Notes under the pieces: model-generated
Seen by the model: only the letters and a program-made list of their open reading frames with translations
The model's database searches: none
Told to the model about the DNA's origin: nothing
Shown here: positions 28,025-40,594 of the stretch, in pieces
How the letters are laid out: the number at the start of each line of letters is the position of its first letter
Numbering within the stretch: position 1 is the stretch's first letter
Made by a program: the position numbers and the translations under genes
Assembly (NCBI GenBank): GCA_947498325.1
Contig: CANMKE010000002.1
Location: 248,001-312,000 of the forward strand
Direction: 5' to 3'
Origin: an uncultured Persicobacter sp.
Lineage (GTDB): Bacteria; Bacteroidota; Bacteroidia; Cytophagales; Cyclobacteriaceae
DNA: 64,000 nt

Positions 28025-28603
28025 ATGGGAAAGATTTTCAAATTTTTCGTGCCGCCGAAGCAATGGCGACTCCCGGTAACCATACTTCTTGGGGTATTTT
28101 TTGGGTTAGCAACCTATACTGTTTACGTTTCTAAGGCGTGGGTTTATCTGTCAGATGATCCTGCGGCATGTGTGAATTGCCATATTATGGCACCACAATA
28201 TGCAACGTGGCAACATAGTGCGCATAGGGAACAGGCAACTTGTAATGACTGCCACGTTCCGCATGATTCAGCTCTGAGAAAGTATTATTTCAAGGCAATG
28301 GATGGTTTGCGTCACGCAACGATGTTCACCTTGAGAATGGAACCTCAAGTGATAAAAATCCATGAGGCCGGTGCTGGAGTTGTTCAGGAAAACTGTCAGC
28401 GTTGTCATGATCACCTAACAGAGACCAACAAGAATTTACAAGTCTCTTACCAAGAAGCCGAGCATGGCAAAGGAAAGTTATGCTGGGATTGCCACAGGGA
28501 AGTACCCCATGGGCGAGTGAACAGTTTATCTTCTACACCAAATGCTCGTGTGCCATTACCGTCGTCGGTCGTGCCAGAGTGGTTAAGAAAAATCAAAAAG
28601 TAA
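28025..28603 (+). CDS. nrfH: Cytochrome c nitrite reductase small subunit NrfH
   Basis: A 192-residue membrane-anchored tetrahaem cytochrome of the NapC/NirT family that passes electrons from menaquinol to NrfA. One N-terminal helix (about 18-36) anchors it. Four CXXCH haem sites are seen: CVNCH (49-53), CNDCH (73-77), CQRCH (about 123) and CWDCH (about 155). It lies 24 bases before nrfA in the same operon. Confidence 0.95.
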   Translation: MGKIFKFFVPPKQWRLPVTILLGVFFGLATYTVYVSKAWVYLSDDPAACVNCHIMAPQYATWQHSAHREQATCNDCHVPHDSALRKYYFKAMDGLRHATMFTLRMEPQVIKIHEAGAGVVQENCQRCHDHLTETNKNLQVSYQEAEHGKGKLCWDCHREVPHGRVNSLSSTPNARVPLPSSVVPEWLRKIKK

Positions 28604-28627
28604 AAAGTTAAATTAATAATTTTCGAT

Positions 28628-30124
28628 ATGTCAAATATTTCCAAAAGTGTAAACAACAAACCATGGCTTGGTTGGTTGTTATTTGGCCTTTCGCTGGTCG
28701 CAGTGTTTTGTTTAGGGCTATTGGCCTCTTCAATTACTGAGCGTCGTGTGGAAGCACAGATGGTCAACAAACCAATGACTGCGCTTGGCAAGACAGAAGC
28801 AAAAAATGAATTATGGGGTAAGAATTACCCAAGAGAATACCAATCATGGGAAGCGACTAAAGAAATGGACTTCTCCTCGAAATACAACGGTAATGTGATG
28901 CGTGATATGTTGGAGGAAGATCCAAACTTGCCAATTCTTTGGGCAGGTTACGGTTTCTCTAAAGATTACAATGCTCCACGTGGCCACATGTATGCGATTG
29001 AGGATATTCAGAATACTTTGCGTACAGGTGCTCCTACTGGTCCGGATGACGGCCCAATGCCAGCAACATGTTGGTCATGTAAATCACCAGATGTACCACG
29101 TATGATGGAAGAGCATGGTGTAGCGGAATTCTACAAAGGAAAATGGGCAGGTAAAGGTGCTGAGATCGTGAACCCAATCGGTTGTGCGGATTGTCACGAT
29201 TCAGAAACGATGAACTTGCAGATCAGTCGCCCGGCATTGAAAGAGGCTTTCGAGCGTCAGGGTAAAGATATCGAGAAAGCTTCCCATCAGGAGATGCGTT
29301 CTTTGGTTTGTGCGCAGTGTCACGTAGAGTATTATTTCGACAAGTCGGAAGGAAAACAAAACTACCTGACTTTCCCATGGGATAAAGGAACAACGGTTGA
29401 AGATATGGAAGCATATTACGATGCCATTGACTTCAAAGACTGGACACACAAAATCTCTAAGGCTCCAATGTTGAAAGCTCAGCACCCAGGTTATGAAACT
29501 TGGAAAATGGGTATTCACGGTCAGCGTGGGGTATCTTGTGCAGATTGTCACATGCCATATAAAACGGAAGGTGGACAAAAATTCACCGATCACCATATTC
29601 AGTCGCCATTGAACAATGTAGCGAACTCTTGTCAGGTTTGTCACCGCGAGGAGGAAAAAACATTGATCAGCAATGTTTACGAACGTCAGGATGCCATCAA
29701 AGAAACACGTGATAAAGTAGAGCGCGAATTGTCGATTGCTCACTTGGAAGCAGGTTTCGCATGGGAAAAAGGCGCAACTGAAAAGCAAATGAAAAAAGCA
29801 TTGACTTTGATTCGCCATGCTGGATGGAGATGGGATTTTGCTGTAGCATCTCACGGTGCCGCATTCCACGCACCAATCGAAATCGGTCGTATTTTGGGTA
29901 GTGCATTGGAGAAATCTTACCAAGCAAGAATGGAAATCAAGAAGGTGTTGATCGAGTTGGGTTACACTGGCGAGGTACCACTTCCTGATTACTCTACAAA
30001 AGAGAAAGCTCAAAAAGTAGCAGGCTTGGATATGGACAAACTGAACAAAGATAAAGAGACCTTCAAGCAAAATTTATTGCCGGAGTGGATCAAAGAAGCA
30101 AAGGCCAAAGGGAAATTGCTTTAA
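28628..30124 (+). CDS. nrfA: Ammonia-forming cytochrome c nitrite reductase NrfA
   Basis: A 498-residue periplasmic pentahaem enzyme that reduces nitrite to ammonium with six electrons. A signal/anchor helix lies at about 14-34. The catalytic haem has the special CWSCK site (Cys148, Lys152), and four CXXCH sites follow: two CADCH, one CAQCH and one CQVCH. Length and motif order are typical. With nrfH it supports respiratory nitrite ammonification and detoxification. Confidence 0.97.
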   Translation: MSNISKSVNNKPWLGWLLFGLSLVAVFCLGLLASSITERRVEAQMVNKPMTALGKTEAKNELWGKNYPREYQSWEATKEMDFSSKYNGNVMRDMLEEDPNLPILWAGYGFSKDYNAPRGHMYAIEDIQNTLRTGAPTGPDDGPMPATCWSCKSPDVPRMMEEHGVAEFYKGKWAGKGAEIVNPIGCADCHDSETMNLQISRPALKEAFERQGKDIEKASHQEMRSLVCAQCHVEYYFDKSEGKQNYLTFPWDKGTTVEDMEAYYDAIDFKDWTHKISKAPMLKAQHPGYETWKMGIHGQRGVSCADCHMPYKTEGGQKFTDHHIQSPLNNVANSCQVCHREEEKTLISNVYERQDAIKETRDKVERELSIAHLEAGFAWEKGATEKQMKKALTLIRHAGWRWDFAVASHGAAFHAPIEIGRILGSALEKSYQARMEIKKVLIELGYTGEVPLPDYSTKEKAQKVAGLDMDKLNKDKETFKQNLLPEWIKEAKAKGKLL

Positions 30125-30155
30125 ATTAATAATTGATTAATTTTACAAAATATTT

Positions 30156-30187
30156 AAAGCGAGGGACTTATTTTTCCCTCGCTTTTT
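30156..30187 (+). terminator. Terminator after nrfA
   Basis: AAAGCGAGGGA pairs with TCCCTCGCTTT across an 8-base loop, followed by a T-run. Downstream resB/ccsA may rely on read-through or their own promoter. Confidence 0.8.
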
Positions 30188-30210
30188 AAGTTTTTTAATC
30201 ATTAAGTCAG

Positions 30211-31470
30211 ATGGAGAATAGTAGGAAAAGGAAGTTGTGGACGGGCCCAATGGGTTACGCCGAAGCAACCGTGGTGGCGGCAGGCCTATGGGGTATCGGA
30301 GCAGTATTGCAGTGGATGAATGGGCCACTTCCTGAGATCGCCATGCAATGGCCGTCAAATATCATCTGTGGAAGTGCGCTGTTTTTCGGCATTGTGGTGC
30401 TGTATTTACTCAACAGAAAAAAAGCCTGGGTGAAGTGGATTTCCGGTGTTCCGGCAGCGATCGTCAGTCTGGTGTTTTTTGGCTTGCTCTCTACGATCAT
30501 GGCCCTTACGCCTCAGCAACCACACCTTGATCCACACTGGATCATGACCTTGGGCTGGAACCAAATGACCGGTTCTTACCCTTTCATTCTTTCCTATATA
30601 TTCCTGTTAGTGACTTTAGGATTTGCGACGATGAAGCGATGCTTCCCGTGGCGAAATAAAAACTGGGGATTTTTTGCCAATCATGCCGGTTTATGGATTG
30701 CCCTTTGGGCGGCAGGTTTTGGTGCTTACGATGTGCAGCGATTGTCAATGGACCTATATACAGGGCAGGCAGAATGGCGTGCATACGATGCCCAGGATCG
30801 TGTTCATGAACTTGATATGGCATTGGAACTTCAGCAGTTTATCATGGAGGAATATGCTCCGAAACTGATGATGGTCAACCCTACGGATGGAGCGATTTAC
30901 GATCAGGACCCACAGTTCTTCATGATGGTGGAATCAGATTCCACATCAGGAGATATTATGGGTTATAAGATCCAGACCAGCCGAATGATGAAATCGGCAG
31001 CCTATGTAGCAAGTGCAGGAAAAGCCCGTTACGAAGAGGTTAATGAATATGGTGCTTCCCCTACGGCTTATGTAACGGTTACATTGCCGAATGGCGAGCA
31101 GAAAGAAGGCTGGATCAGTGCAGGAAGTTTTGCGGCTTCACCGGCATGGCTGGCTTTGGACAGCACCCATACCTTGGCCATGGCACCGCCAGAACCCAAG
31201 CGTTTTGCATCCCGCGTAAAAGTTTTCAAAAAAGGCGAACAGGAAGCTGTTGAAGATTTGGTGGAAGTAAACCACCCAATTTCAGTAGGTGACTGGAAAA
31301 TTTATCAGTTAAGCTATGACGACTCCAAAGGTCGTTGGTCCAACCTCTCGGTAGTAGAGTTGGTCAGAGATCCATGGCTGTGGGTAGTTTACATTGGCGT
31401 ATTCATGATGATCGTCGGTGCATTGTACCTGTTTACTTTAAATAAAGACGACGTTAGTCCTGTAGCATAA
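30211..31470 (+). CDS. ResB-like cytochrome c maturation protein
   Basis: A 419-residue membrane protein with helices near 20-36, 48-65, 73-92, 120-140, 158-174 and 390-410, and a large periplasmic domain (about 180-385). The stretch VNHPISVGDWKIYQLSYDD and the following VVELVRDPWLWVVYIG are typical of ResB, the partner of CcsA in system II haem attachment. It lies directly before ccsA (12 bases) and after nrfHA, whose nine haems would need this system. The family call is good though the sequence is divergent. Confidence 0.82.
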   Translation: MENSRKRKLWTGPMGYAEATVVAAGLWGIGAVLQWMNGPLPEIAMQWPSNIICGSALFFGIVVLYLLNRKKAWVKWISGVPAAIVSLVFFGLLSTIMALTPQQPHLDPHWIMTLGWNQMTGSYPFILSYIFLLVTLGFATMKRCFPWRNKNWGFFANHAGLWIALWAAGFGAYDVQRLSMDLYTGQAEWRAYDAQDRVHELDMALELQQFIMEEYAPKLMMVNPTDGAIYDQDPQFFMMVESDSTSGDIMGYKIQTSRMMKSAAYVASAGKARYEEVNEYGASPTAYVTVTLPNGEQKEGWISAGSFAASPAWLALDSTHTLAMAPPEPKRFASRVKVFKKGEQEAVEDLVEVNHPISVGDWKIYQLSYDDSKGRWSNLSVVELVRDPWLWVVYIGVFMMIVGALYLFTLNKDDVSPVA

Positions 31471-31482
31471 ATTTTTGAAAAG

Positions 31483-32262
31483 ATGAGTTGGATGATTTTT
31501 CCTTTTATCGGTGTGGGCAGCGCAGCGTTCTGGCTTACCGGTACCTTTTCCGCTTACAAAAAGTGGGATAGCCGATTAACAACCGTATTGTTCATTTTAG
31601 GTTCCCTGATTTTTGGGGGCTTTGTGGCTGCCATGTGGGTGCACCTCGACCGCCCACCACTGAGAACCCTCGGCGAAACCCGCCTGTGGTACTCCTTATT
31701 TATTCCTTTAATTGGCTTGTTTGCCTATCGTCGCTGGAAGTACTTCTGGCTGTTGGCCTACTCTGCAGGAATGGCCGTGATGTTTATCACGATCAACATC
31801 ATGCACCCGGAGGCCATGAATAAAGCTTTGATGCCCGCCCTGAAATCGCTGTGGTTTGTGCCACACGTTATCGTATATCTTTTTGCTTACGCGATACTTT
31901 CGGCATCTTCAGTGGTGGCTATTCAGGGGCTTATTCAGCCACAAAAAAGCCTTAATTTACTGAAAGTGGCCGATCACCTTGTCAATGTAGGAACGGCATT
32001 TTTGACGCTGGGCTTGTTGTTTGGTGCATTATGGGCAAAAGAAGCCTGGGGCCATTACTGGACCTGGGATCCTAAGGAAACATGGGCTTTCATTACCTGG
32101 CTGTCTTATATGGTTTACATCCATTACAGACACTTCCATCCGAAAAAAGAAAATGTAGCACTCTGGACGCTGGCCATTGCTTTCATTGTCCTGCTGATCT
32201 GCTGGTTTGGTATCAATTACCTTCCTTCAGCCCAAATGAGTGTGCATACTTATACATCATAA
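31483..32262 (+). CDS. ccsA: Cytochrome c biogenesis protein CcsA/ResC
   Basis: A 259-residue protein with eight membrane helices and the tryptophan-rich haem-handling WWD motif WGHYWTWDPKETWAFITWL (about 189-207). Conserved histidines lie near residues 105 and 128. It moves haem to the periplasm and attaches it to apocytochromes with the ResB-like partner encoded 12 bases upstream. It may serve the cbb3 oxidase cytochromes as well as NrfHA. Confidence 0.95.
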   Translation: MSWMIFPFIGVGSAAFWLTGTFSAYKKWDSRLTTVLFILGSLIFGGFVAAMWVHLDRPPLRTLGETRLWYSLFIPLIGLFAYRRWKYFWLLAYSAGMAVMFITINIMHPEAMNKALMPALKSLWFVPHVIVYLFAYAILSASSVVAIQGLIQPQKSLNLLKVADHLVNVGTAFLTLGLLFGALWAKEAWGHYWTWDPKETWAFITWLSYMVYIHYRHFHPKKENVALWTLAIAFIVLLICWFGINYLPSAQMSVHTYTS

Positions 32263-32286
32263 CATTACTTAATCGAATTTTTTTAA

Positions 32287-33621
32287 ATGAAAAATCTTTA
32301 CATCGCCGCCTTGGGGATGGTTGCCATGCTATGGTCGCCTCTTCAGGTTTCAGCACAAGAACAACAGGATAACGCTTCCAAATTGGAGGTGAAAGCACAA
32401 ATTCGCCCTCGTGCGGAATACAGAAATGGTGCTTTGGGGTCTACAGGCAGCACACCTGCTTTCTTCGTAAATAACCGTGCTCGTTTGAGTGCTTATTATA
32501 CTGATGCCTCAGGAAAATTGACCGTCGGTATGTCGGGCCAAAATGTTTCTGTTTGGGGTGCAACACCACAGGTAGAATCAGTTGGTACATTTATGCTGAA
32601 CGAGGCCTGGGCAGAATTGAAAGCCTCTGAGCATTTCGCTTTCCGCATTGGTCGTCAGCAACTCGCTTACGATGATGATCGTATCCTCGGTACTTTGGAC
32701 TGGCAGGTGTCAGGAAGATGGCATGATGCCTTCCTGACCAAAATGAAGTTTGATAACTTTCAGGCACACGTAGGTTTGGCATTCAACCAGAATGCAGAAA
32801 CAAAAGACAATACGTGGTACAATCCAACCGGCGCACAGCCATACAAAACCATGCAGTTTTTATGGATGAGCCAAAAGTTCAATGAGCGATTCTCGGCAAC
32901 GGCTTTGTTGATGAACCTTGGTTTTCAGAAAATGGAAAACGGAAGTGCTGTTGATGGCATTTACGATTTGCAAACTTTGGGAGCGAACCTTCACTTCAAA
33001 GAAGGCGCTTGGAAAATTAATGGTACTTTTTATAAGCAATTAGGTCAGAATAACAGTGGCCAAGGGGTAAATGCCCATATGTTGGCTTTGAAAGCTATTT
33101 TTGCTGAGCAGGGATCTGCCTGGAGCTTCGCCGGTGGCTTGGATTACTTGTCAGGTAACGATGCTGAACTGGATGCCGATGGGGAAATTAACCCAACCGT
33201 TAAAGACAACACACAAAAGGCATTTGATCCATTGTTTGGAACACACCACAAATTCTATGGTTTCATGGATTACTTCTATGTGGGTAACCATGGCAGAAAT
33301 ATCGGTTTGTTCGATAAGCACATTGGTGCGACTTACAAGGTGAATCCAAAATTGTCGATCACAGGTACAGCACACCACTTTAACGGTGCTGGAAGTATCA
33401 AATCTGAATCAGGTGCTACAGAAAGCAACTATTTAGGAACTGAAGCGGATTTCTCCTTCAAGTACAAAATGATGAAAGATGTTGTACTGATGGGTGGTTT
33501 CTCGCAAATGTTCGGAACAGATGCCTTGAACCAATTGTATCCTGGAACCAACCAAAATGGCCAAAACTGGGGATGGTTGATGATCAACATCAACCCAACA
33601 ATCTTCTCAAGCAAGTTTTAA
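32287..33621 (+). CDS. Outer-membrane beta-barrel protein (alginate-export-like)
   Basis: A 444-residue protein with a signal peptide (1-24, ending VSAQ) followed by alternating beta strands and a C-terminal phenylalanine. The early motif QIRPRAEYRNG and the later RIGRQQLAYDDDRILGTLDWQ resemble the alginate_exp barrel family (PF13372), whose members form outer-membrane channels. It starts 24 bases after ccsA, so it belongs to the nrf operon and may admit nitrite or release ammonium. That role is inferred from position only. Confidence 0.75.
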   Translation: MKNLYIAALGMVAMLWSPLQVSAQEQQDNASKLEVKAQIRPRAEYRNGALGSTGSTPAFFVNNRARLSAYYTDASGKLTVGMSGQNVSVWGATPQVESVGTFMLNEAWAELKASEHFAFRIGRQQLAYDDDRILGTLDWQVSGRWHDAFLTKMKFDNFQAHVGLAFNQNAETKDNTWYNPTGAQPYKTMQFLWMSQKFNERFSATALLMNLGFQKMENGSAVDGIYDLQTLGANLHFKEGAWKINGTFYKQLGQNNSGQGVNAHMLALKAIFAEQGSAWSFAGGLDYLSGNDAELDADGEINPTVKDNTQKAFDPLFGTHHKFYGFMDYFYVGNHGRNIGLFDKHIGATYKVNPKLSITGTAHHFNGAGSIKSESGATESNYLGTEADFSFKYKMMKDVVLMGGFSQMFGTDALNQLYPGTNQNGQNWGWLMININPTIFSSKF

Positions 33622-33869: not shown

Positions 33870-34565
33870 ATGCTAAAAAACAGAAAAATTTGGCTGCCAG
33901 CTGTCTTGCTTTGCTTGATGGTCGGATTATGGAGTGCGGACCACATTGACGCTCCATTAGTCGGAACCTTGGATGGGGGGAGTTCACTCGCTGACATCAC
34001 GGACTATTATGCTTTTGAAAGTCCTGAAAACAGCGATAATTATGTATTTGTAGGGAATGTTTATGGCTTGATTGCACCAGACAATACTGCAGATGTTAGC
34101 TTCTCTGAAGATTACCTTTATGAAATTAACCTTGATTATGATGGCGATGCGATTGAAGACGCGGTCATTCAGGTGATTTTTCGTGGCGACAAAGCCATAT
34201 TTATCGGCCCTGTTGCCCCTTCAGCAACTGGCCTTGATTCTGAAATCATGGGTTCTGCTCCTCGTGTAATGGTAGATGTTACCAAAGCAGGAGAAGAAGC
34301 CAAAGTGATGGAGGAGAACGGCATTAAAGTTTTTGCCGGACCAAGAGATGATCCATTCTTTATGGATTTCTTCAAGTTTGTAGCTATTGTGAACGGTGCC
34401 GGTGGTGCGGAGAACCCTCCAACCAGTTTTGACCGTGATGGCGGAGCGGATACCTTCGCAGGTACAAACGTGATGTCGATGGTTATTGAGCTTCCAAAAT
34501 CGATGCTCGGTGGGAATGAAACCACCAAATTTACTTCTTGGTTGGAATCTAAATCGAAAAAATAA
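33870..34565 (+). CDS. DUF4331-family secreted protein
   Basis: A 231-residue protein with a signal sequence (about 1-22) followed at once by SADHIDAPLV, the family's start, then LADITDYYAFESPEN and NVYGLIAPDN. Aspartate-rich strands follow. DUF4331 proteins are secreted and of unknown function. It lies 1 base before the second DUF4331-like gene and heads a three-gene cassette. Confidence 0.82.
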   Translation: MLKNRKIWLPAVLLCLMVGLWSADHIDAPLVGTLDGGSSLADITDYYAFESPENSDNYVFVGNVYGLIAPDNTADVSFSEDYLYEINLDYDGDAIEDAVIQVIFRGDKAIFIGPVAPSATGLDSEIMGSAPRVMVDVTKAGEEAKVMEENGIKVFAGPRDDPFFMDFFKFVAIVNGAGGAENPPTSFDRDGGADTFAGTNVMSMVIELPKSMLGGNETTKFTSWLESKSKK

Positions 34566-34566
34566 G

Positions 34567-35400
34567 ATGAAGAAATTTAATATCTACCTCCCCTTGCTCC
34601 TATTGTTGGGGGTGTTTGCAATTTCATGTAGCAGCGATGATAACGACAACCCGGCACCAAGCCCAAGTCCAGCACCGCCAGCACTGGCCGCTGATTTTCT
34701 GCTTGATGATGAGTACGACGTCCTTGACATGATTAACCTCGATGGATCAAACTCTGCAGGAACTAACCTGACTTACGACTGGACCGTGACCGATTCAGAT
34801 GGCAATGAGATGACCGTATTGAATGCCAATACAGATATGGCGACTTTCATGCCTGAAATGGCGGGTGACTATACCGTAAGCTTGATGGTCAACGGAACTG
34901 AAGGCGATGATACCCTTGAAGAAACCATTACTGTTTTAAGCCCTGTATTCATGACTAAAGATCAGATGGGACGCCCTGCGATTAACACGGTTTTCAACTT
35001 CTTTGGTGATGCAGATACAAAAAATGCCTACAATCAGACCTTGCCTTCAGATGGGGCTCAGAATGCAGATGCATTTAAAGGTATTTTCGACGCTTTGCAA
35101 ACTTATATTGGCTTGGATCCTGCAACTTACACTAACATTTTAGGACTTGACAATGCAACTACAGCGAGTGTTTTGGCTGTTGATGTACTGCAATCGGATA
35201 AGTCTTCAGCAACAAGCTATGGCACCTTGAATGGCCGTGGATTAGCAGATGATGTTGTTGATGTTACTTTGATTTTGACTTTCGGTGGACCAGACCTAAA
35301 TAATATCAATGATACCCAGAAGGGCTTGATCAGTGATTTTGTTAATGCCAACGACAAAGAATTTTCGACTTCTTTCCCATATGTGGCAGCACCGAATTAA
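34567..35400 (+). CDS. PKD-domain lipoprotein with DUF4331-like C-terminus
   Basis: A 277-residue protein; the start at 34567 is one base after the preceding stop codon and gives a lipoprotein signal with lipobox AISC (about 18-21). A Pro/Ser linker follows, then a PKD-like domain (about 38-118, with INLDGSNSAGTNLTYDWTV). The C-terminal part (about 120-277) has MGRPAINTVFN and VDVTLILTFGGPD, which resemble the C-terminal half of DUF4331 proteins. The two genes may therefore be complementary halves of one surface system. This is an inference. Confidence 0.75.
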   Translation: MKKFNIYLPLLLLLGVFAISCSSDDNDNPAPSPSPAPPALAADFLLDDEYDVLDMINLDGSNSAGTNLTYDWTVTDSDGNEMTVLNANTDMATFMPEMAGDYTVSLMVNGTEGDDTLEETITVLSPVFMTKDQMGRPAINTVFNFFGDADTKNAYNQTLPSDGAQNADAFKGIFDALQTYIGLDPATYTNILGLDNATTASVLAVDVLQSDKSSATSYGTLNGRGLADDVVDVTLILTFGGPDLNNINDTQKGLISDFVNANDKEFSTSFPYVAAPN

Positions 35401-37028: not shown

Positions 37029-38792
37029 TTATCTCGCCAGCCACTCCACCATCTTCTCCGCCACAGCCTCCGCCGAAGCAGGGTTCTGCCCCGTGATCAC
37101 TCGCTGATCTGCCACTGAGAACTCTTCCCATTTATTTCCATGCTCAAAAATGCCTCCTTTGGCCTTCAGCTGATCTTCCAATAGGAAGGGAACAATTTTG
37201 TCCAGCTTCACCGCTTTTTCTTCCGCATTGGTAAAGCCGTTCACCTTCTTTCCGTCAATCAGTGCCTTGCCATTGGAGAGTGTAACAGGTAGCAATCCGG
37301 CAGGTCCATGACAAACGGCCCCTACGACACCCCCATTTTCATAAATTTGCTGCGCCACATTCGCTAAAGGTTCGCTCTTGGGAAAGTCCCACATTGTTCC
37401 ATGTCCCCCGGCATAGTAGATCGCCCGATAACCTTTCGGTTTAATATCCTGAGCGGCAATGCTGTTGTTGATTTTTTGTTGCGCCTGATCATCTTTGAGA
37501 AAGCGGGCATTTTGCGCATCGGTGGTATCGACCCCATCCATATAGCTTTTGCCTCCTTTTGGACTGACAAATTCCACCTCATAGCCGGCTGCCTTAAAGG
37601 TGTAGTAGGCATGGCTCACCTCAGAGAGATAATAGCCCGTTTTTTTAGCGTCTTCTGAAGTGCCCAATTTCTGATGACTCGTAATGGCCAGCAGTATTTT
37701 ACCCTTTGATTTTGGAAGGGTCGGTTTTTGGTTCAGCTTATAAATTGCATAAGTTTGTTGCTCATCCTGCCCGTAGTTGATTTCCGAAGTGGTGAAGTAC
37801 ATATTCCCCTTACTGTCTTTGGCAAAAGTGTCAGCCCATCGGATTCGGCGATCTTTAATCCACCGGAAATAATAGCCTTCCTTATAAATGGCAATGGCTT
37901 CGTTTTCAAGGTCACCCAGGTATAAGTTTCCCTCCTGATCGAACATCATGCCATCGGGGGCATTAATTGAAGCTACTCGCTCCACATGTTCCACATAGTT
38001 TTCATTATTATAAGCAGGATGGTCGAGCACTTCTGTAGAAATCCGATAGAGGCTATGCCCTGAAAGTGCCGCGTAATAGAGGTGCTTTTTGTCAGGGCTC
38101 AGGGCGATGCCATCCGCATGAATATTGCGTTTCCACAAGCCATTTTTCAGCTTCAGGTAGCCGGTCTCCGCATGTGTGGAAGGGTGGTTGGCCAATATTT
38201 TTCTTGAAACACCTGTATTGAGATCCAAAATAATCAAACCACCTGCACCGGAATCGGTAATGTAGATCATGTCATTTTTATGATTGATACGCAGGTCGTT
38301 GAAATAGGAGTTCTGACTGTAAACGCTTGAGTCGAAATAAATGGTTTTTACGTATTCGTCATGGTCGCCATGCAAATGGAAAAGGTGAATTCTTGGCCCT
38401 TTGTTATCAACTCCTGTAAACTTGGGGTTGGCAGGGTCAAGTACCCACAAAAAGCCCGCCTCATCCGCCACTACCGACTGTACAGCAATAAAATGGGGTT
38501 CGTCTTTTTTGGTGTTTTGATAGTTGTTCCACTTTTTATTGGGAAACGGAACAACTTTCCCATCCACAATTTCTCCTACTGAAATCGGGACATTATCTGA
38601 CCATCGGGGAAAGTTGACAAACATTCGTCCTTCGGGGCTGATGGTAATTCCTGTCCATTGATTTTTGGAGCTTGCCACGAGGGTCAGCGGGTCATCTGTG
38701 GAAGCAGAAGGAGCGTCTTTATTTTCCTGTTTGTCAGCGCAAGCACTGAAAGTAAACAATAAGGCCAGCAAATAGAAGTGGAGAACTTTCAT
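37029..38792 (-). CDS. Major-royal-jelly-like / DJ-1-PfpI fusion lipoprotein
   Basis: A 587-residue protein with a lipoprotein signal (lipobox TFSAC, about residues 14-18). Residues about 30-355 form a beta-propeller of the yellow/major royal jelly protein type, with GRMFVNFPRW, ADEAGFLWVLDPAN and HADGIALSPDKKHLYY. From about 365 a DJ-1/PfpI domain of the Hsp31/YajL type follows, with GKILLAITS, SEVSHAYYTFKAAGYEVEFVS, GGHGTMWD and the nucleophile motif AVCHGPAGLL (Cys about 491). The two halves are normally separate proteins. A periplasmic glyoxalase or chaperone with a sugar- or lactone-acting propeller is possible; the function is unknown. Confidence 0.85.
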   Translation of the reverse strand: MKVLHFYLLALLFTFSACADKQENKDAPSASTDDPLTLVASSKNQWTGITISPEGRMFVNFPRWSDNVPISVGEIVDGKVVPFPNKKWNNYQNTKKDEPHFIAVQSVVADEAGFLWVLDPANPKFTGVDNKGPRIHLFHLHGDHDEYVKTIYFDSSVYSQNSYFNDLRINHKNDMIYITDSGAGGLIILDLNTGVSRKILANHPSTHAETGYLKLKNGLWKRNIHADGIALSPDKKHLYYAALSGHSLYRISTEVLDHPAYNNENYVEHVERVASINAPDGMMFDQEGNLYLGDLENEAIAIYKEGYYFRWIKDRRIRWADTFAKDSKGNMYFTTSEINYGQDEQQTYAIYKLNQKPTLPKSKGKILLAITSHQKLGTSEDAKKTGYYLSEVSHAYYTFKAAGYEVEFVSPKGGKSYMDGVDTTDAQNARFLKDDQAQQKINNSIAAQDIKPKGYRAIYYAGGHGTMWDFPKSEPLANVAQQIYENGGVVGAVCHGPAGLLPVTLSNGKALIDGKKVNGFTNAEEKAVKLDKIVPFLLEDQLKAKGGIFEHGNKWEEFSVADQRVITGQNPASAEAVAEKMVEWLAR

Positions 38793-39126: not shown

Positions 39127-40437
39127 TTAAATCAGTTCAGCAGGGATTTTTTCTGATTTGTCCTTTGGTAGTTCGGAGCTTCTTCTTCGCCACCATGAGG
39201 CCAGAGAGGAGCCTGTTACGTTCATCATAGACCCGAAAATAGCGGCTGCAAGGCCCAAGGTTGCTGTTTTTCCAAGCTCTACGGCAATGCCTGAGGCCAG
39301 GCCTCCATTTTGCATCCCCACTTCAAGTGCAATGGTGCGGCAATCCTGTTCTTTCAGTCGGAAAAGCCTACTCAGGCCGTAGCCAAGGGTGTACCCCATA
39401 CAATTGTGGAGCAGGCACGCGAGTATTAGGATTTGCCCCACCTGTAGAAGGCTGTCCCGTCCAGCAGCCGTGATGATGGTGATGATTAAACCGATACCTG
39501 CCATGGAGATAAAAGAAAGGATTTTTTCAAGGTCAATGGCCTGATGGTTTTGTTGATAATAGCGCAGGGCGGTGGCCAGCGCAATAGGCAGACCAGCAAA
39601 CAAAGCCATATCGGTACCGAAATTAATCATCAGGGTGTTGGTTTCCATTGGAGCTGTCAGGAAGCTGATCACGTTTTTGAGCAGGATAATACCACTCAGT
39701 ACAAGAAGCTGTAATTGGTCGTTTTGCTTCATACTGATGCGGTGCATAAACATATTGAAAATCAGACCTGCGCATATTGGCAGAATCACCATACTGAAAA
39801 TCCCGATCATCATGCCCCAGAAATCAATGGCGACCATGTGGCCTACCAGTAATTTCATCAGCAGGGGTGTCATGAAAGGTGCCAAAAGGGTGGCACAGGC
39901 GGTAATGGTTACCGATAACGCTAAATTGGCCTTGGCGATAAACGACATCACATTGGAGGCCATACCACTTGGCGAAGAACCGATCAGGATAATTCCTGCG
40001 GCTATTTCAGCAGGAAAATTGAAGATATAAATGATGATAAAACCAACGATGGGCATGATGGTAAACTGGCAGCACAGGCCGATCAGTACGCCCTTGGGCA
40101 TCTTGATCACCCCAGCAAAATCATTTAGGCTCATTTGCGATCCCATGCCAAACATGATGATTTGTAACAGGGGGACGATGAGGTTTTTCATCTGAAATGA
40201 ACCTACCAGGACAAAGGGGGCAGGAAAATACAAAGAGACTGCTACGGCGGTCAGGATCATTAAAGAATAGGAAAAACCACTGAATTTCTCTGTACCTTTT
40301 GCTGTGATGGCCATCGCCAGCAAGGCGGTAATCAGGCAGGGCCCTTCCCAAGTGGTGATGTCCGTGAGTTGGAAACAAAGGAATAGCAAAAAGGCGACAA
40401 CCGAAATGAGGCCTGTAACTTTGTACTTGGTTTGCAT
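39127..40437 (-). CDS. BASS-family (bile acid:sodium symporter) transporter
   Basis: A 436-residue inner-membrane protein with about ten helices. The start at 40437 (MQTKYK) is preferred because the alternative 51 bases upstream adds only polar residues. Family features are MFGMGSQMSLNDF, GVLIGLCCQFTIMPIVGF, ILIGSSPSGMASNVMSF and, near the end, EVGMQNGGLASGIA. These match the sodium-dependent BASS transporters, which import organic acids such as bile acids, pantothenate or pyruvate. The substrate cannot be read from the sequence. Confidence 0.9.
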   Translation of the reverse strand: MQTKYKVTGLISVVAFLLFLCFQLTDITTWEGPCLITALLAMAITAKGTEKFSGFSYSLMILTAVAVSLYFPAPFVLVGSFQMKNLIVPLLQIIMFGMGSQMSLNDFAGVIKMPKGVLIGLCCQFTIMPIVGFIIIYIFNFPAEIAAGIILIGSSPSGMASNVMSFIAKANLALSVTITACATLLAPFMTPLLMKLLVGHMVAIDFWGMMIGIFSMVILPICAGLIFNMFMHRISMKQNDQLQLLVLSGIILLKNVISFLTAPMETNTLMINFGTDMALFAGLPIALATALRYYQQNHQAIDLEKILSFISMAGIGLIITIITAAGRDSLLQVGQILILACLLHNCMGYTLGYGLSRLFRLKEQDCRTIALEVGMQNGGLASGIAVELGKTATLGLAAAIFGSMMNVTGSSLASWWRRRSSELPKDKSEKIPAELI

Positions 40438-40594
40438 TGTTAAATTTTTATTGACTGAAAAATGATCGTTACGGATGGAGTCAATCAATGCGCAAAAATT
40501 ACTGATTGATGCGGCAGGTAATCGGGCTTGATCAATAAAATAAATTTAAGAATTGACTTTATAAAATCCTAAGATTGGTTAACCAAATAAAGCG

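Follow-up and report, generated by a model that had tools for sequence, protein, structure and literature searches.

Among proteins of solved structure, Anabaena variabilis Ava_4197 (2qe8, a putative hydrolase) is the best structural and profile match to the N-terminal half of the protein analyzed here, but it is a single-domain protein without a DJ-1 domain, and to our knowledge its function has not been established. The insect yellow/dopachrome conversion enzyme (9w1k; dopachrome is a quinone), the royal jelly protein MRJP1 (5yyl), and LJM11 (3q6k) have the same propeller fold at 16 to 19% identity and likewise lack DJ-1. We know of no established function for bacterial proteins of this MRJP/yellow family. 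The C-terminal half resembles Francisella REP24 (4p5p), yeast Hsp31, and Candida glyoxalase III, which we take to be class III DJ-1/Hsp31 proteins; these are standalone, whereas the protein studied here is of the exported type and carries the domain fused behind a propeller. A described gene neighborhood of related type is catDE of Bacillus subtilis; DUF24 and HxlR denote one family, CatD belongs to the DoxX-like proteins, and CatE adopts the VOC fold. According to an excerpt of the report on this system (CatR/YodB), the repressor is of the DUF24 type and catechols are detoxified by a dioxygenase (PMC6212828). A C-terminal DJ-1-superfamily domain likewise occurs in a large-subunit catalase, where a catalase takes the place of the propeller, and the excerpted report states that this Hsp31-derived domain gives stability and chaperone activity (PMC9137513).

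A literature search covering few subscription papers yielded no prior description of an MRJP/DJ-1 fusion. The stretch of 64,000 nucleotides of an uncultured Persicobacter sp. analyzed here, in the following called the window, contains such a gene. It represents a new domain architecture built from known families and is as such of modest interest.

Architecture and predicted export of the fusion protein

The fusion gene has an ATG start codon and encodes 587 amino acids without internal stop codons. The gene, its parts, and its upstream neighbor are as follows.

37029..38792, minus strand: fusion gene encoding an export signal, an MRJP/yellow-type propeller, and a DJ-1/Hsp31-type domain, 587 aa (ORF, Pfam, AlphaFold2)
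38739..38792, minus strand: signal with lipobox-like FSAC, residues 1-18 (sequence, our own rule, model helix 2-17)
37728..38690, minus strand: propeller, six-bladed MRJP/yellow fold, residues 35-355 (Pfam MRJP, structural match 2qe8)
37701..37727, minus strand: linker, residues 356-364 (alignments of six fusions)
37032..37700, minus strand: DJ-1/Hsp31-type domain, residues 365-587 (Pfam DJ-1_PfpI, structural match 4p5p)
37620..37622, minus strand: Glu391, conserved acidic residue in the DJ-1 domain (40 of 40 rows, including six fusions)
37308..37313, minus strand: Cys494-His495, DJ-1 nucleophile and histidine (40 of 40 rows, including six fusions)
39127..40488, minus strand: sodium/bile-acid-symporter-type transporter, upstream neighbor, with no evidence of a link to the fusion (Pfam SBF)

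The initial annotation had described one uninterrupted frame with a lipoprotein-type signal, a propeller, and a DJ-1 domain retaining its glutamate and nucleophile, and this was confirmed by the ORF, the Pfam matches, our own export rule, and the 40 aligned DJ-1 sequences. The AlphaFold2 model of the protein (34 aligned rows) had a mean pLDDT of 91.1 and a pTM of 0.81, with values below 50 solely at residues 18-31 when stretches of at least three residues were counted. In the alignment of the six known fusions the linker occupied the same position, the linkers of the two Bacteroidales proteins (L067, L068) being two residues shorter.

The propeller half matched Pfam MRJP (PF03022) at residues 103-305 with an E value of 1.6e-23 and 84 bits (cut-off 19.8). 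It also passed the cut-off of the SMP-30/gluconolactonase family (PF08450, SGL) with 32.3 versus 26.3 bits, far under the MRJP score. A sequence search of solved structures returned 2qe8 for this half, with an E value of 4.4e-48 in a profile comparison, and 2qe8 was also the best structural match (Z 42.0 over 308 residues, model range 35-357, 25% identity; VIA-align), followed by MRJP1 (5yyl; Z 38.7, rmsd 1.9 over 312), the Aedes dopachrome conversion enzyme (9w1k; Z 36.9, rmsd 2.6 over 329), and LJM11 (3q6k; Z 34.2). Matches to designed Pizza proteins and to TRIM NHL domains merely reflect the common propeller fold and were set aside. Solved lactonases scored Z 25-27, compared to Z 34-42 for the royal-jelly/yellow/dopachrome-conversion structures. 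Of the two examples of a shared metabolite named in the initial annotation, a dicarbonyl and a lactone, the lactone is by this comparison the weaker guess. Bacterial relatives of the propeller appear in plasmid records under the names "L-dopachrome tautomerase-related" and "major royal jelly family."

Among 24 propeller rows, six of them fusions, 29 positions were invariant, including Q45, R56, N60, W64, N165, D166, D227, D280, W319, and D321. W319 aligned with a tryptophan of 2qe8 that is Trp-291 by our own count, and in an excerpt of a published comparison Trp-291 of 2qe8 is equated with Phe-325 of LJM11 (PMC6678240). Among the pore residues of LJM11 and the dopachrome conversion enzyme, the profile alignment placed the aromatic W319 at the Phe-325 position; Q105 and D321, the latter a possible counterpart of the pore aspartate, were off by one.

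The DJ-1 half matched Pfam DJ-1_PfpI (PF01965) at residues 390-583 (E 1.3e-11, 45 bits, cut-off 26.6) and contained the motifs SEVSH (Glu391) and AVCHGP (Cys494, His495). These three residues, which we take to be the catalytic ones, were identical in all 40 DJ-1 rows and were also kept in the alignments with 4p5p and 1qvv. No NCBIfam cut-off was reached by the fusion protein. The nearest model was the E. coli-type HchA glyoxalase III equivalog (NF003168, 57.2 versus 365 bits), and the PfpI/YhbO subfamily (TIGR01382, 39.3 versus 139.05 bits) and the DJ-1 family glyoxalase III equivalog (TIGR01383, 27 versus 131.25 bits) were missed as well. By structure, 4p5p came first (Z 36.1, 40% identity, model range 363-587; VIA-align), with yeast Hsp31 (1qvw; Z 34.0, 35%) and Candida glyoxalase III (4lru; Z 33.4, 32%) behind it; E. 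coli Hsp31 scored lower (Z 27.8), after 4p5p, 1u9c, 1qvw/1qvv, and 4lru. A sequence search of solved structures returned 4p5p, 1u9c, yeast YDR533c/Hsp31, and Candida glyoxalase III. Both by sequence and by structure, the closest relatives thus form the Hsp31/GLX3-like group (yeast Hsp31, Candida GLX3, REP24).

The N terminus, MKVLHFYLLALLFTFSAC, combines a hydrophobic stretch with the lipobox-like FSAC, in which Cys18 is the candidate lipidated residue, and was classed as a lipoprotein signal by our own, crude rule, which looks for a hydrophobic stretch, a basic N-terminal start, and a motif of the cleavage or lipobox kind. The same class was assigned to L034 and L003, whereas L035 (AWAC) came out as a plain signal and the Bacteroidales fusions L067 and L068 begin in the manner of a signal peptide but carry no lipobox. 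Lipidation is hence, as judged from these N termini, not general among the fusions, and the envelope anchoring assumed in the initial annotation would not extend to the Bacteroidales copies.

That annotation had also started from a cytoplasmic picture of DJ-1 proteins and regarded an exported one as unusual, which did not hold for this group. By the crude rule, an export-type N terminus was present in 32 of 40 DJ-1 rows, namely in all six fusions and in 26 of the 34 unfused relatives, and 53 of 69 propeller rows looked exported; these counts refer to rows close to the query, with near-copies kept and some gene starts uncertain. Export looks ordinary for this DJ-1 group in the sampled Bacteroidota, so that the special part of the fusion would be its partner. 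The standalone DJ-1 paralogue in the window's own genome (L002) has no signal and sits after a gene which we presume to be of the LysR type.

Distribution and gene neighborhoods

The same fusion was found in six genomes from three Bacteroidota lineages, i.e., Persicobacter, another Cytophagales family, and two Bacteroidales MAGs. The full-length homologues show 99% identity within the species (G285), 65% within the genus (G342), 53% in another family of the same order (G172), and 52% in the Bacteroidales MAGs (L067, L068). In a Saprospiraceae MAG (L083) the gene ends at a contig edge inside the propeller. Fusions were present in 2 of 241 genomes of the order, 3 of 148 of the own family, 1 of 18 of the family of G172, 1 of 395 across the phylum, and 3 of 23 loci in the genome contigs set, where the own genome is included wherever it was searched and the genome sets overlap in part; none was found in 658 proteobacterial genomes. 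These low counts in several lineages indicate that the fusion is rare but spread. A sequencing artefact or frameshift, which would have undone the initial annotation, was rejected, as an intact frame was also present in another genome of the species and in four more genomes beyond it. Both halves are evidently under purifying selection (window versus L034, dN 0.004, dS 0.035, dN/dS ~0.12; L067 versus L068, dN 0.072, dS 1.096, dN/dS ~0.07). The fusion is a real, selected two-domain protein with a predicted export signal.

In a tree of the DJ-1 halves (40 rows), holding the fusions together was better by 4.17 lnL (p-AU 0.602), and in a tree of the propeller halves (29 rows chosen from 69) it was worse by 10.1 lnL (p-AU 0.088). 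A first propeller tree had been computed with 68 of the 69 rows, one near-copy having been dropped. Single-domain propellers branch among the fused ones. A single origin of the fusion would be compatible with both trees and was not rejected; more than one origin, or secondary loss of the DJ-1 half, is also conceivable.

No single theme covers all four fusion neighborhoods. In the window, the fusion is flanked by the SBF transporter gene upstream and by a single TPR-protein gene on the other strand, and a gene for a nitronate-monooxygenase/FabK-type flavoprotein lies two genes further upstream; none of the electrophile-related gene types discussed below adjoins the fusion there. In Persicobacter sp. 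CCB-QB2, VOC and HxlR genes precede the fusion, and a search run without a positive control found no homologue of this VOC protein in the window's genome. In both Bacteroidales MAGs a DoxX-type gene is located directly upstream (assigned by Pfam in L067 and by likeness in L068). The G172 fusion is preceded by a peroxiredoxin-type gene and followed on the same strand by galactose-pathway genes, the first ~280 bases downstream, whose products have epimerase, galactokinase, galactose-1-phosphate uridyltransferase, and aldose 1-epimerase domains.

In six loci (L052, L149, L150, L156, L168, L169), DJ-1 and MRJP were found together as individual genes, and this supports the suggestion of the initial annotation that the two halves act in a common pathway. 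In L052 (G250, Cytophagales), the gene for an exported MRJP protein lies ~60 bases beyond a DJ-1 lipoprotein gene; HxlR, SDR, and one small membrane-protein gene are found within four genes. As a type of neighborhood, catDE resembles L052, L054, L067, and L068, an analogy drawn on few loci; catDE itself comprises neither MRJP nor DJ-1. Plasmids of Sphingomonas parapaucimobilis (LysR, DJ-1, OYE, MRJP, VOC) and Azotobacter chroococcum (LysR, DJ-1, SDR, quinol monooxygenase, MRJP) carry operons with both genes, as do plasmids of Sphingobium, Sphingopyxis, and Qipengyuania (LysR, DJ-1, VOC, OYE, MRJP, SDR, ABM, formaldehyde dehydrogenase, DJ-1-type). The order of nine genes is common to the plasmids of three Sphingomonadales genera (L156, L168, L169), perhaps by exchange. 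Three translated DJ-1 proteins of the plasmid operons had no signal on inspection by eye, whereas the MRJP proteins had one, suggesting that the two would occupy different compartments there.

MRJP/DJ-1 pairing is a minority arrangement. None of the 10 MRJP matches in the 658 proteobacterial genomes lay beside a DJ-1 match at an E value of 1e-30, and two of these ten are in G755 and G752, which were chosen as centers for holding one. Nineteen plasmid regions with an MRJP gene were viewed, a 20th being a DJ-1 record without annotation. DJ-1 was in the same gene run in 5 of the 19, which is not a rate, as H1 and H2 were opened because the search joined both halves and H36 and H38 because they resembled H29. 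In the other 14 regions, a zinc alcohol dehydrogenase gene was directly before MRJP in four, one contained alcohol dehydrogenase and ABM genes, one had formaldehyde dehydrogenase directly before and alcohol dehydrogenases further off, SDR was within a few genes in three, and none of the discussed neighbors was present in five; these are raw counts, and genes for SDR and alcohol dehydrogenase are widespread in general. For 124 MRJP and 615 DJ-1 plasmid places, 0.063 adjacent pairs are expected under a uniform density, which ignores record size and redundancy, and a ceiling of one DJ-1 per MRJP record gives between 1.3 pairs (500-kb records) and 4.4 pairs (150-kb records). At least six MRJP-DJ-1 records were seen (H1, H2, H3, H29, H36, H38), several of them near-copies and H3 from the listing alone.

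For the general context of propeller genes, 128 loci were available, of which we used L052 onwards except L055-L058, L062, L065, L066, and L086, set aside for duplicate genes or a different architecture; 69 were left and 65 could be anchored. HxlR, DoxX, and VOC as a general propeller context were rejected, being near solely in the five of these 65 loci that had supplied the seeds, and SDR was not enriched (near in 2, far in 4). A DJ-1-type gene was near the propeller in L052 and in one further locus, L126 (G151), in which it adjoins the propeller gene on the opposite strand (L126:6426-7025).

Of 20 standalone DJ-1 genes of Bacteroidota (L129-L148), 14 were immediately preceded, on their own strand, by a Crp/Fnr-type regulator gene. 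Such genes lay no more than three genes away in 17 loci and at a greater distance in 5; the one regulator tested has a cNMP_binding domain. Regulator and DJ-1 gene thus appear as a conserved regulator-enzyme pair. Apart from HxlR, part of VOC, and a single propeller seed, the seeds behind these neighbor counts were themselves drawn from a subset of the 20 loci. ABM genes were within three genes of DJ-1 in 5 of the 20 loci, two of them seed loci, and far in none, while MdaB-like flavodoxin-fold genes were near in two and OYE in one. No near-excess was observed around these 20 genes for aldo-keto reductase (2 near, 2 far), VOC (1 and 1), or HxlR (0 and 1). In two loci, a secreted SGL- or NHL-type propeller gene adjoins DJ-1 (L133:6781-7707, L148:5739-6695), for which phmmer detected no relation to the query propeller.

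Proposed function and alternatives

We propose, with a probability of about 0.5, that the fusion is an exported, envelope-located protein for detoxification of electrophiles such as a quinone or a dicarbonyl. The likeliest role of the DJ-1 half, judged from the conserved residues and what is known of the family, is that of an active enzyme of the Hsp31/glyoxalase III type. In it Cys494, together with Glu391 and His495, would attack the carbonyl of a reactive dicarbonyl, a quinone, or another electrophile of this kind, and no cofactor would be needed. The central pore of the propeller most likely accommodates a related compound, cyclic or quinoid, that would be bound or isomerized there, and the two halves, joined and exported, would form the envelope arm of an electrophile-detoxification response. 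Electrophile handling is suggested by the company of OYE, VOC, SDR, ABM, and dehydrogenase genes that the DJ-1 group and MRJP keep in part of the genomes, and by the yellow family, which, in an excerpt of the literature, includes dopachrome-converting enzymes (PMC6678240). The main results against it are the galactose context in G172, the window without such neighbors, and the low frequency of the pairing in the broader samples.

The galactose genes downstream of the G172 fusion would fit a role in sugar handling instead, in which the propeller is an exported sugar-lactonase or aldose-binding domain and DJ-1 clears reactive or glycated sugar by-products. Persicobacter sp. CCB-QB2 degrades agar according to an excerpt of its description (PMC5300873), and the propeller does exceed the SGL cut-off. 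This context, however, was seen in one of four fusion neighborhoods, the viewed stretches of the plasmid operons are free of sugar genes, and the propeller is matched better by MRJP and dopachrome-conversion structures than by lactonases, so that we consider a sugar function unlikely. A DJ-1 domain serving as a stabilizing or chaperone module of the propeller would have a precedent of the same order, enzyme followed by Hsp31-type domain, in the large-subunit catalases (PMC9137513), and the pTM of 0.81 for the two-domain chain fits a defined packing. Nothing in a purely structural role, however, would require Glu, Cys, and His to be retained, as they are in all 40 rows, and relatives exist as standalone proteins, which makes this role distinctly improbable. 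No better are the prospects of a neutral fusion between two exported proteins whose tasks have nothing in common: both halves mostly occur alone, both are commonly exported, and MRJP-DJ-1 adjacency is rare in wider samples, but the fusion was kept in three lineages under purifying selection, and operonic pairing is found in other phyla, against the 0.063 adjacent plasmid pairs expected under uniform density.

A broader view can be offered, tentatively and with considerable doubt. Bacterial yellow/royal-jelly proteins might in general be part of electrophile detoxification, operon-linked in some Proteobacteria to DJ-1, Old Yellow, VOC, and quinol-monooxygenase proteins and in some Bacteroidota, with two of these enzymes fused, moved to the envelope as a bifunctional enzyme. 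An ancestral bacterial role would then be at hand for the family that became the insect yellow and royal jelly proteins. Independently of this broader view, the fusion and the DJ-1/MRJP operons constitute Rosetta-stone evidence tying the propeller to carbonyl or quinone chemistry.

Additional observations

Other domains are joined to DJ-1 domains of the same group. L055:3247-4377 and L056:4712-5842 encode a Lumazine_bd_2 domain fused to DJ-1 behind a signal-like start, L057:4580-6004 encodes a DJ-1 domain with two ABM (quinol-monooxygenase-type) stretches and also a signal-like start, and in L031 a second DJ-1-like domain was seen on inspection.

About 5 kb from the fusion, positions 28025-33621 of the window encode NapC/NirT-type and c552-type cytochromes, ResB-type and cytochrome-c-assembly proteins, and an Alginate_exp-type porin, and by inspection a similar cytochrome cluster adjoins the fusion of Persicobacter sp. 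CCB-QB2 (L054), following the fusion gene. Between the window's cluster and the fusion gene, at 33870-35400, a DUF4331 domain is seemingly divided between two neighboring, apparently exported proteins, the second of which has a PKD-like region and matches solely the C-terminal end of the DUF4331 profile.
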